Below are positions 5 through 43,721 of a DNA stretch of 64,000 nucleotides, one piece after another. A program made the position numbers and the translations under genes. The notes under the pieces were generated by a model. The model made no database searches and was not told the origin of the DNA. It saw nothing but the letters and a program-made list of their open reading frames with translations. The number at the start of each line of letters is the position of its first letter. Within the stretch, counting starts at the first letter, position 1. The stretch is from Haloglomus halophilum (GTDB lineage Archaea > Halobacteriota > Halobacteria > Halobacteriales > Haloarculaceae): the NCBI RefSeq assembly GCF_024298885.1, contig NZ_CP101166.1, forward strand, positions 1,550,001-1,614,000, written 5' to 3'.

Positions 5-656
5 CCTGTTGAAAGCCCTCGCCCGCTCGACTTCCGTCAGAGCAAGCTCTGACGACTTCTGGCTCACTACGCTCGCCAGAACGGCCGGGACTCGCTGCGG
101 TCCTCGGGTTCGCTGCGCTCACCCTGCGGTCCTTGCGTCGTCCGGGGCGGGTCGAGGCGGATTGTCGGCTCCGCGGACAATCTAATAGCTGGCGGCTACG
201 CCGCCAGCCGGGCGCCGGGAGAGCTTCGTTCTCTCGAGCAATCGGCGGCGGAGCCGCCGATGACGGCCCCTTTCAGTCCCACCCTGTTGCTGGTTGCACA
301 GAGCGTCCGCGCGTGGTGGTTCCGGCGAAGTGCTAGTGTCCCCACACCTCCCCGCGCCAGCGCCGGACGTGTTCCGGCACGCTCGCTGGCGTCGTCGGCG
401 CTTCGCGCCGACTGCAAGCGGGACGGAGTCCCGCCCTGCGAGCGGCCTCCACAGCAGGGCCGCTGGCGCGCTTCCTGTCCTCGGAACCGGCTCGCCGAGT
501 AACCGCCACCTGGCCGGGAGCGCGTGGTGAGCGGCTTGCCTGCGAACCCGCGCGACCTGGGGAAGGGCAGGGTCACAGGGCCCGTGACACGTTCTATCCC
601 CTGGTTCTATCCCCTGGTGGACTCGAAGGTGAGCCGAGAGCCGAGGGCTTCGTAGG
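5..656. repeat. Non-coding hairpin-rich repeat element, copy A
   Basis: No credible gene lies here; open frames on both strands have arginine/serine-rich, shadow-like translations. The segment is a chain of short perfect hairpins: 36-53, 57-81, 160-182, 188-208, 242-260, 362-378, 394-412, 418-434, 441-464 and 572-588. Bases 547-571 are identical over 25 bases to 22371-22395, with the core GACCTGGGGAAGGGCAGG. Bases 613-629 match 22423-22439 with one mismatch, and 642-656 (CGAGGGCTTCGTAGG) match 22530-22544 exactly. A degenerate inverted copy of the right end is at about 11-21 (GAAAGCCCTCG). I infer a dispersed element, either MITE-like or a structured RNA locus. Its left end may lie outside the window. 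Confidence 0.7.
591..616. repeat. Two-copy 13-base tandem repeat
   Basis: The 13-base unit GTTCTATCCCCTG occurs twice in direct succession inside repeat element A, between the conserved core and the conserved right end. Copy B has no equivalent repeat, so it is a copy-specific expansion. Confidence 0.85.
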
Positions 657-8702: not shown

Positions 8703-10508
8703 ATGGGACTGCATGACAATGCAGAGGGGGGAGCGGAGGGGAGTCGAACGCCGGTCGACCGACGCCGGTTCCTCAGGGGTGCCACGACGGTCGGTGCCGG
8801 ACTCGCCCTCGCCGGGTGTAGTACGGATGTCGGGGATCTCGGCGACGGCGGCGATGGCGGGGACGGTGGGGGCGACGGCGGCGGCGACGCGACCCCTACC
8901 AGCGTGGCCACGAAGTCCCCGCTCACTCCGTCGGACTGTGACCCGGAGCCGATCGAGTCGGACATCACGTCGGACACGACCTGGGACGCCAGCGACTGTC
9001 CGCGGGTCGCCCTCGAGAGCAACATCAAGGTCACCAGCGGGGCGACGCTGACCATCGAACCGGGTGTCGAGGTCGTCGGCAAGCCCGGGTCGAAGCTGAC
9101 CGTGAAGGGCGACGGGACGCTCGTGGCCAGCGGCAGTGCCAGCGACCCCATCTGGTTCTACGGTGATTCGCGGGTGCCGGGCCACTGGCAGGTCATCGAG
9201 TTCGAGTCCGACAATCCCAACGAGCTGTCGAACGTGGTCGTGCATGATGCGGGCGATGGCGACTGGGCGAACGTCTGGGTGCAGAACGGCGCGCGCCTCT
9301 CGGTGACCGACTCCTGGTTCGCTAACAGCGCCACGTGGGGGCTGGTGGCCGAGGACGGCGCCACGCTCGATTTCGCGCGGAACGCGTTCACCGGGAACGA
9401 GACGGCGCCGCTGTCCATCGCCACGACGCTCATGGGGGCCCTGGACAGCGTCTCGCTGTACGCCGGCGGCAACGGGACCGACCACATCGAGGTCAGCGGC
9501 GTCGACCTCGAGAGCGAGGCCACCTGGCCCGCCACCGACGCACCGTTCTTCCTCGAGGACAACAGCAAGCTCTTCGCGACCGTCTCGGTCGACCCCGGCG
9601 CACGGTTCCGGTTCGCCGAAGGCGGGAAACTGACCGTCAAATCGGAGGGGGCGCTCGCCGCCAGCGGGACGAGCGAGCGCCCGGTCGTCTTCGAGGGCGA
9701 CGAGGCGGTCCCCGGCTACTGGCAGACCATCGAGTTCGAGTCCAACAACCCCGACAACGTCCTCGACAACGTGGTCGTGCGTGACGCGGGTGCTGGCGAC
9801 TGGGCGAACGTCTGGGTACAGAACGGCGCGCGGCTCTCCGTGTCGAACAGCACGTTCGCCAACAGCGCCACGTGGGGGCTGGTGGCCGAGGACGGTGCCA
9901 CGTTCCCGGAGTTCGCCACGAACACGTTCACCGGGAACGAGACGGCGCCGCTGTCCATCGCCACGACGCTCGTCGGCGCGCTCGATGCCGGGTCGACCTA
10001 CGCCGGCGACAACGGGACCGACCGCATCGAGGTCAGCGGCGTCGACCTCGAGAGCGAGGCCACCTGGCCCGCCACCGACGCACCGTTCTTCCTCGAGGGC
10101 AACAGCAAGCTCTTCGCGACCGTCTCGGTCGCTCCCGGCGCACGGTTCACCTTCGCCGAGGGCGCGAAGCTCACCGTCAAACAGGAGGGGGCGCTCTCGG
10201 CGGACGCCGGGGACGGGGAGTCCATCGTCTTCGAGGGCGCCGAGCAGTCGCCGGGCTACTGGCAGACCATCGAGTTCGAGTCCAACAACCCCGACAACGT
10301 CCTCGACAACGTCGAGGTGGCCTACGGCGGCGGTGGCGACTGGGCGAACGTCTGGGTACAGAACGGCGCCCGCCTCTCGCTGACCAACTCCAGGCTCGCG
10401 GAGAGTGCCACCTGGGGCATCGTCGTCGAGGGGGGCGCGACCTTCGACGGGAGCAACAACGTCTACGAGAACAACGCCGAAGGTGGCATCAGGGACGAGA
10501 CCAGCTGA
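8703..10508 (+). CDS. Tat-exported lipoprotein with beta-helix-like internal repeats
   Basis: About 601 residues. The N-terminus has a twin-arginine signal (DRRRFLRG) followed by a lipobox (LALAGC), so it should be exported folded and lipid-anchored. A Gly/Asp-rich linker follows. The rest consists of right-handed-beta-helix-like rungs with many Gly, Asn and Val. A unit of about 179 residues beginning DWANVWVQNGARLS occurs twice in full and a third time in part (nucleotides 9261, 9798 and 10338). Each unit has NSATWGLVAEDGAT, GNETAPLSIATTL and ATWPATDAPFFLE, and is preceded by a PGYWQTIEFES-type motif. No catalytic motif is recognised; surface binding or polysaccharide interaction is possible. 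The function is unknown. Confidence 0.82.
   Translation: MGLHDNAEGGAEGSRTPVDRRRFLRGATTVGAGLALAGCSTDVGDLGDGGDGGDGGGDGGGDATPTSVATKSPLTPSDCDPEPIESDITSDTTWDASDCPRVALESNIKVTSGATLTIEPGVEVVGKPGSKLTVKGDGTLVASGSASDPIWFYGDSRVPGHWQVIEFESDNPNELSNVVVHDAGDGDWANVWVQNGARLSVTDSWFANSATWGLVAEDGATLDFARNAFTGNETAPLSIATTLMGALDSVSLYAGGNGTDHIEVSGVDLESEATWPATDAPFFLEDNSKLFATVSVDPGARFRFAEGGKLTVKSEGALAASGTSERPVVFEGDEAVPGYWQTIEFESNNPDNVLDNVVVRDAGAGDWANVWVQNGARLSVSNSTFANSATWGLVAEDGATFPEFATNTFTGNETAPLSIATTLVGALDAGSTYAGDNGTDRIEVSGVDLESEATWPATDAPFFLEGNSKLFATVSVAPGARFTFAEGAKLTVKQEGALSADAGDGESIVFEGAEQSPGYWQTIEFESNNPDNVLDNVEVAYGGGGDWANVWVQNGARLSLTNSRLAESATWGIVVEGGATFDGSNNVYENNAEGGIRDETS
9261..10337 (+). repeat. Long direct duplication inside the lipoprotein gene
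   Basis: Bases 9261-9797 and 9798-10337 are two copies of a 537-540 base unit, with a partial third copy starting at 10338. Long stretches are identical between copies, for example around 9395-9430 against 9935-9970. Nucleotide-level identity means recent duplication or continuing gene conversion. Confidence 0.85.
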
Positions 10509-22206: not shown

Positions 22207-22544
22207 CCTACGAAGCCCTCGCGCTCTCGACCACTCCGGGCCTCGCTGCGCGCCGGTTCGACTGACGGAGGTGCACGAGGCTCAGCAATCCACGGGCCGG
22301 GAGAGCGGGGCGCCGCAGGCGCCCCGAGCGAGCGGCGAAGCCGCGAGCCGCGTGGCGGAACGAAGTGGAGCCCGCGCGACCTGGGGAAGGGCAGGGGCGT
22401 CGGGCCCGTGGAACAACCGACTCCTGGCGGACTCGAAGGGCGAGCGCGCTCAGCGGTCCCCCGGCGACGTAAGCACCGCAGCGACCGAAGGGAGCGAGGA
22501 GCGCAGCGAGCCGCGGGGCCCTGAGCGCGCGAGGGCTTCGTAGG
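22207..22544. repeat. Non-coding repeat element with terminal inverted repeats, copy B
   Basis: A 338-base element without a credible gene. Its ends are inverted copies of CCTACGAAGCCCTCGCGC (22207-22224, and reversed at 22527-22544). Inside are hairpins at 22307-22325 (GGGGCGCC-GCA-GGCGCCCC) and 22332-22344. A 25-base segment, 22371-22395, is identical to 547-571 of copy A; 22423-22439 and 22530-22544 also match copy A. Copies A and B share order and orientation of these blocks but differ in the sequence between them. There is no transposase and no clear target-site duplication. It fills most of the gap between khtT and serA. Confidence 0.72.
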
Positions 22545-42760: not shown

Positions 42761-42881
42761 TTCGGATATTTCGCAGAATATTTTCGGAATCGGCGACAGA
42801 GCGAGCGCGGAGTGCTCGGGTGTCAGAGTGTGGCAAGAATCGCCGCACGGCCCGCGGCCGTCACCGCATCCGGGTCCGGGT

Positions 42882-42994
42882 CGGAGGGGTGCGGTTACGA
42901 GACGGAGGGGTGCGGTTACGAGACGGAGGGGTGCGGTTACGAGACGGAGGGGTGCGGTTACGAGACGGAGGGGTGCGGTTACGAGACGGAGGGG
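42882..42994. repeat. 21-base tandem repeat, 5.4 copies, next to the nickel permease stop
   Basis: Five exact copies of a 21-base unit beginning CGGAGGGGTGCGG (42882, 42903, 42924, 42945, 42966) plus a partial copy at 42987. All are identical, so the array is young. It ends eight bases before the last codon block of the permease gene (stop at 43002-43004). Read on the minus strand in the permease frame it would encode SRNRTPP repeats. It has no spacers and is not CRISPR. Confidence 0.9.
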
Positions 42995-43001
42995 CCGCGG
43001 A

Positions 43002-43721
43002 TCACAGGAGTGCCGCGCTCGCGTCGACCAGCAGGAGCGTGGCCAGCGTCACCACGGCGCCGCCCGCGACGGCCTGGGCGGCACCGTGGACGGTGGCGCT
43101 GTGTTCACCGAGTCGGCCGAACGCGGCGCCGACGCCCGCCCCGAGCAGGCTCATCGTCGCGGTGATGCCGACCGCGTAGGTCAGCACCGCCAGCGAGACC
43201 ACCCCGGGGCCGGTCCCCGGGAGCAGCGTGGTCGCGAACACCAGCATCGACACCGGCGGGGAGAGGGTGAACAGCGCGCCAACGAGCCCCGTCTTCAGGT
43301 ACGACCGGGCGTCGTGGGAGTGGTCGTGGCTGTCGAACCCCGGCAGCGGGAGGTGGAGGTGTGGGTGGCTGTGCGTGACCTCGCCGTGGGTGTGGGTGTC
43401 CGTCCGGAGGACCCGCCGGACGCCGGTGACCGCCATCGCCACCCCGAGGAGCCCGAGGAGGATTCCGGCGCCGACGGTGCCGAGGTGGTCGTAGAGCGGC
43501 GGGAAGTCGGTCCGCCCGAGCAGGACGGAGGCCACGACGAGCCAGACGACGACCAGGGCGACGTGGCCGAGGCTGAAGCAGGCACCAGCCAGCGCGGACA
43601 GCCGCGAGTCGCCGTACTCGGCCGTCAGCGACGAGATGCCGGCGACGTGGTCGGGCTCGATAGCGTGCGTGACGCCGAGGACGCCAGCGGTCGCGAGCGC
43701 CGCGGCGACGGTACCACTCAT
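43002..43721 (-). CDS. NicO/UreH-like nickel permease
   Basis: About 239 residues with about six membrane segments. H19-AIEP-D24-H25 is an HX4DH nickel-binding motif in the first helix. A cytoplasmic loop is rich in His ([20 protein letters not shown], then HDHSHD), and later helices contain [18 protein letters not shown]. These features fit NicO/RcnA/UreH-type nickel permeases. Placed between urtA and the urease operon, it should import Ni2+ for urease. It is divergent from ureB and precedes a 21-base tandem repeat. The start MSGTVAA is chosen from the helix boundary. Confidence 0.85.

Follow-up and report, generated by a model that had tools for sequence, protein, structure and literature searches.

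The systems closest to the element described here are the palindrome-associated transposable elements (PATEs) and the small mobile repeats (SMRs) of Haloquadratum, and it fails a defining feature of each. This comparison draws on PMC3119063, PMC3733652, and PMC10969869. PATEs of Haloquadratum walsbyi are presented in PMC3119063 as non-coding, heterogeneous copies with near-terminal palindromes and no transposase gene, which also occur as terminal-only versions through internal deletion, and no target duplication is reported there. For SMRs, the same paper describes inverted ends unrelated to known transposons, tens of copies, no target duplication, and a mobilisation left unexplained. Our element, of which two copies (A and B) lie in the window, i.e., the whole analysed stretch of 64,000 nucleotides from Haloglomus halophilum, is like both in these respects, as far as its inverted ends differ from the nine Y1_Tnp loci compared and no target duplication was seen. 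In PMC3119063, PATEs are without terminal inverted repeats and share their palindromes with IS605-type transposons, whereas copy B and the long forms of our element have mirrored arms, nine Y1_Tnp loci are unlike it, and an invariant internal head is present. SMRs measure about 80-110 bp and are commonly more than 95% alike within a type (PMC3119063), whereas our element measures about 0.2-0.8 kb, its copies mostly reach 76-94% identity at best, and it occurs in many genera. In its way of working it resembles the transposase-free palindromic repeats of Haloquadratum, and the putative replacement discussed below resembles deletion-coupled insertions as described in PMC3119063, although these concern sequences in general and here the swap would be between members of one family.

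Two further systems are less close. REP sequences and REPINs, as described in PMC3733652, are likewise dispersed extragenic hairpins with inverted pairs, some of them after coding regions, but REPs are 20-40 bp long, carry the same tetranucleotide as a tag at one end, and often come with a RAYT transposase; our element has no constant tag, and genome G212, with 28 core matches, has no Y1_Tnp. One form of the element, with T-tracts in its tail, is like an intrinsic bidirectional terminator in being a hairpin with a T-tract on both strands beside a stop codon, but terminators lack an invariant head of 60 nt and the window's tails lack T-tracts. Because these T-tails sit at stop codons, integron attC sites were weighed as a candidate too. 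No description of the element was found in the open-access literature searched, and the family, which is genuine and large, is apparently undescribed, its conserved internal head being the new part.

Copies A and B belong to a dispersed family of haloarchaeal palindromic elements, modular in structure and non-coding. An earlier note on this DNA had regarded them as two related non-coding copies without a transposase, and in this it was right. The shared core, which it had put at 25 bases, is identical in both, but the run comprises 26 bases (Table 1). The second block of 17 bases (CCTGGYGGACTCGAAGG, 613-629 and 22423-22439) with one mismatch and the identical block of 15 bases (CGAGGGCTTCGTAGG, 642-656 and 22530-22544) were recovered as described, in the same order and on the same strand, both by script and by direct reading. 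The same is true for the inverted ends of copy B (37 nt, complementary at 84%), for the degenerate left end of copy A (CCTGTTGAAAGCCCTCG at 5-21), and for a core that is kept better than the rest of the element. The 15-base sequence had been taken for a simple terminus; in fact it closes a second hairpin, as one of its arms, and further copies of it often occur outside the element. The shared blocks fall in two modules, the head hairpin and the right-hand tail hairpin. The picture of a two-copy family did not hold either. In the window's own assembly (G000, 4.45 Mb, three contigs), the 21-nt core with up to three mismatches gave 43 matches and its reversed pattern one, while the 15-nt end with up to two mismatches gave 128 against 28 for the control. 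Since these counts far exceed the reversed-pattern controls, a chance origin of the blocks is excluded, and A and B are two members of a large family. A BLAST search with copy A returned 106 matches, and 60 loci were fetched from G000 for comparison. A coding function was not supported: the ORFs that run across the copies are overlapping ones of the kind expected by chance, and the loops differ in length by single bases.

Table 1. Parts of copies A and B in the window
Feature	Position	Strand	Basis or remark
Copy A left arm, mirror image of a tail hairpin, CCTGTTGAAAGCCC to CCCCTTTCAGTCCCACCC	5..284	-	Reverse complement of the second tail form in other copies
Copy A middle domain, common to many long-form copies	285..511	+	Many BLAST matches start at query position 264
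Copy A head hairpin, core 547-572	512..572	+	Covariance-model match G000:C1:1550511-1550573
Copy A right tail, hairpin interior missing	613..656	+	Sequence reading, copy comparison
Copy B short left arm and remnant of an alternative middle domain	22207..22294	-	Remnant by comparison with L017, L024, and L036
Copy B head hairpin, enlarged variable stem, core 22371-22396	22295..22396	+	Reading, core search
Copy B right tail hairpin, complete	22423..22544	+	Reading, copy comparison

Of the two, copy A represents a long form, with an internally shortened right tail, and copy B a short form, in which the head stem is enlarged. The head hairpin, common to all lineages, consists of GGCCGGGAGC, a variable stem-loop, and GCGACCYGGGGAAGGGCAGG, and the core shared by A and B is its 3' arm. 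To the right of the head, the window's genus has a tail hairpin of the type CCTGGYGGACTCGAAGGGCGAGCG ... CGCGAGGGCTTCGTAGG or a second form, TGAAAGGGGC ... GGGGGCTTTC; in this genus, a mirrored tail can form the left arm, with either of two middle domains sometimes in between, and long forms reach about 650-820 bp. Tail ends vary (GTAGG, CTACAGG, CGACAGG, CTGG), terminal units often recur outside the element at a spacing of 36-57 nt, and internal deletions occur among the copies, some at short repeats; L218 is a terminal-only copy. Copy A precedes a gene with two TatC stretches, and copy B is flanked by a TrkA_C gene, with its start towards the element, and by a phosphoglycerate dehydrogenase (serA-like) gene, with its end towards it. 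The window also holds a 21-bp tandem repeat (TGCGGTTACGAGACGGAGGGG) in about six registers (42871-43015) and three tandem units of about 540 bp, 66-88% alike, within one gene (9148-10445). At L017 in G000, a 27-base unit is repeated five times in tandem to the right of the element, beside its end.

The search across haloarchaea and the covariance model proposed in the earlier note, the latter built for the head, found the head in 139 of 392 genomes and in 37 of the 95 sampled genera of the order, and the 18-nt core pattern with at most one mismatch was present in 118 of 392 genomes and 35 of the 95 genera. Among 392 genomes drawn from the phylum, 30 were positive with the head model, 26 of them in the order; the other four gave single matches of 27.4-30.5 bits, which we took as chance. 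With at most 13 candidates scored per genome, match counts from this model (R1) are to be read as "at least". Copy numbers differ widely: 25 of 26 genomes of genus g3, which we took as Haloarcula, had one to seven core matches, while in the window's family there were 44 in G000, 38 and 47 in two g5 genomes, 28 in one g8 genome, and none in others of g5 and g8, i.e., a range of 0 to 47. Two genomes of the window's genus, G393 and G392, had 44 and 34 core matches, respectively, with up to two mismatches. A scan of named genomes yielded 71 stretches, mainly from Haloarcula, Natrinema, Halopiger, and their relatives, and a single Natrarchaeobius genome carried, on near-identical heads, both a T-tail (L076) and a window-like tail (L126). 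Phages gave no match, nor did viral contigs when searched with the exact core pattern, and copy A had no match in plasmids. With a Haloarcula query one weak plasmid match appeared, and with a Natrinema query seven, two of them haloarchaeal; all cover the region after the core, and the core was absent from the one plasmid match fetched. An origin from phages or plasmids was rejected, there being no core match in phage or viral sequences as searched and no head shown on a plasmid.

The elements were placed relative to genes predicted by a caller that had been trained on codon usage. In the fetched G000 loci, each of the 47 core-like places is intergenic, and the right-hand neighbour is convergent at 20, non-convergent at 25, and unknown at two of them. 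Tail types were surveyed at 71 places in named or newly fetched genomes, with four typed places having no neighbour. Tails are lineage-specific, different tails being joined to one type of head. Tails with T/A-tracts had a known right neighbour in 25 cases, which was convergent in 22, and in 21 of these 22 the convergent gene's stop lies 4-12 nt from the A-tract of the tail. Tails of the window type showed no orientation bias (eight convergent, nine not), and the 25 untyped tails were followed by 13 convergent and eight other genes, four having no neighbour. The window's tail kind has no T/A-tracts and adds a mirrored left arm; a hairpin and T-tract after a stop codon, as expected of a terminator, are found in T-tail copies and not in the window's tails. 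Archaeal transcription can terminate at T-tracts, and for this reason the T-tail form probably has a second role in stopping transcription from both directions.

At a thermosome locus, of which 18 of 30 Haloarcula loci were read, the head was present in five and absent from 13. The stop codon was TAA in three, TGA in one, and TAG in one of the five regions with the element, and TGA in ten, TAG in two, and TAA in one of the 13 regions without it. The idea that the element always supplies the stop codon at this locus was dropped, as a recount showed a tendency only. At L231 (G324), a headless tail lies between two copies of a thermosome 3' end that are identical over at least 61 bp.

Within the window's genus, recent spread, as suggested in the earlier note, is not supported: for 30 of the 60 fetched G000 loci, G393 has a core-bearing element at the corresponding place, with the same flanks on either side, and identity to other copies reaches only about 76-94%. 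Over the head and right tail, these 30 pairs split into 15 at 97-100% and 15 at 75-90% identity in the aligned part, the latter group resembling the best unrelated copies (76-94%), while the coding flanks are mostly 90-98% alike in both groups, with lower values at L027, L031, and L042. Against G392, the longest match was 73-87% identical in 28 of 30 same-orientation pairs, the two short exceptions being 92.3% over 78 nt and 88.2% over 85 nt, and the flanks were 83-95% alike. The 15/15 split and the G392 values are taken from alignments of the longest or aligned parts; a separate comparison of the shared sites counts gaps as differences, and some of its low values are therefore due to deletions (L022, L032). 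For the non-coding sequence of the 11 best-kept G000-G393 loci, identity was 98.4-99.6% between the head and the end of the tail and dropped to 88.8% over the 50 bases beyond. Inverted pairs at the same site were seen once between G000 and G392 and once between G393 and G392. The site of copy A is core-less in G393, and the element is undetectable there in G392; the stretches read from G393 and G366 have no element at the site of copy B next to the end of serA, where G392 carries one in the opposite orientation. From these sequences, whole elements appear to have been replaced at fixed sites, since steady point mutation would hardly give near-identity and then 75-87% in a somewhat wider comparison. 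Conversion within the genome is disfavoured as the source, because the best other copy reaches at most 94.1% (over 119 nt). None of the copies compared was a likely donor at more than 94.1% identity; the source would then have to be sought elsewhere, which is an argument from absence.

An alignment of 66 heads from the window's genome and named haloarchaea, with five bacterial stretches (L082, L084, L097, L098, L106) excluded from all head analyses, showed nearly invariant bases around the head stem and a covarying inner stem. Cells changed on both sides of the stem numbered 78 against 32.2 expected, a value equalled in none of 500 shuffles, and 86.7% of stem cells were paired compared with 78.2%, and with at most 63.8% when the partner was slid; the number of pairs changed on both sides (7 versus 5.4) is a weaker measure, reached by 32 of 500 shuffles. 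Covarying base pairs as looked for in structured RNA are therefore present in the head, and they would be expected of folded RNA and folded DNA alike. RNAalifold favours a short hairpin, CCY-GGGGAA-GGG, over the outer head pairs, both being possible. A known RNA was rejected on the basis of Rfam 15, in which the element had no match apart from one chance match far under the cut-off. It is possible, though somewhat unlikely, that the head is a structured RNA motif of 3' untranslated regions or small RNAs, with the tail as terminator and extra copies made by duplication. The near-invariant unpaired bases next to a covarying stem and the T-tails at convergent stops agree with this, as do a head-stem ratio of G.T to A.C of 15:4 at the named loci (p 0.019, from sequences that are not independent), one head pair that alternates between G-C and G.T in the window's genus, and a ratio of 17:7 for orthologue changes to or from G.T and A.C (54 comparisons, 19 dropped: 15 for low identity or coverage and four without a counterpart). 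However, the inner head stem gave 9:10 in G000 and 8:5 in G393, no promoter-like AT peak was found before the head, the folding of copies A and B exceeds that of shuffled sequence only weakly (z -1.29 and -2.23), the Rfam search speaks against it, and in G000 the element shows no preferred orientation relative to the gene on its right. A stem-wide comparison of G.T with A.C was discarded as a test of RNA, its oriented RNase P RNA control giving 58 G.T and 120 A.C, the wrong direction.

Low probability is given to the view that a DNA transposon or MITE spread in the distant past and left these copies as relics, which now only decay. Mirrored arms, internal deletions, the terminal-only L218, tandem terminal units, and the wide range of copy numbers would all suit a relic, but the conserved part is the internal head while the tails differ among lineages, and 97-100% identity in 15 of 30 orthologues is unexpected for decaying DNA. 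No target-site duplication, as the earlier note proposed to look for, was seen, no site being cleanly empty enough to give both borders. Neither the inverted arms nor the elements of G000 and G393 resemble the nine Y1_Tnp loci of four genomes, and G212 has no PF01797 match, which disfavours transposition by Y1 or RAYT enzymes; no mobilising enzyme was identified. Less probable still, in our judgement, is a chromosomal protein-binding or architectural site that acts as a DNA hairpin or cruciform. It would account for the strictly intergenic places, for orientations that are about equal (23:20), and for the position of all 43 core matches on the largest contig; about 2.6 would be expected by length on the other two, but the difference from zero is not significant, and copies number zero in many close relatives and 18-47 in others.

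Our preferred explanation, which falls just short of an even chance, is that the element is a transposase-free, exchangeable intergenic cassette of a dispersed modular haloarchaeal family. The head, folded on one strand, would be recognised by some chromosomal factor. At favoured sites between genes, elements would then enter or be exchanged in their entirety, and later decay would proceed via short repeats. Presence and absence of the family at orthologous sites and the two modes of identity between similar flanks argue for such exchange; against it stand the lack of a clean insertion with target duplication, of a donor copy, and of an enzyme, the internal position of the best-kept part, whereas mobile elements usually keep their ends, and the absence from phages, viral contigs, and plasmids as searched, which is unusual for mobile DNA. 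Judging from the three genomes compared, the replacement could also be allele exchange by ordinary recombination. A more far-reaching idea, to which we assign a fairly low probability, is that the head is the recognition site of a haloarchaeal system that swaps or inserts small intergenic cassettes as units without a transposase, reading the folded single strand and not the sequence, with lineages adding their own tails, some of them two-way terminators. About one in three of the Halobacteriales genomes sampled contains the near-invariant hairpin, and core matches reach 47 in a single genome. If exchanged as a unit, it would provide a transposase-free way of remodelling archaeal intergenic regions, and probably the ends of genes as well, and it would bear on how the SMRs of Haloquadratum are mobilised, for which there is no explanation so far, and on deletion-coupled insertions.

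Elements also lie directly beside the RNase P RNA gene, in the same direction in Haloarcula and in the opposite direction in the window's genus (L077 7255-7512; G000:C1 about 676843-677370; G020:C18 5694-6372); given the many copies, this adjacency may be chance. In three Natrialbaceae (L070, L072, and L079), the element is located between the end of one gene and the start of another which, from the appearance of their sequences, resemble those for ribosomal protein S6e and an RNase P protein, respectively.
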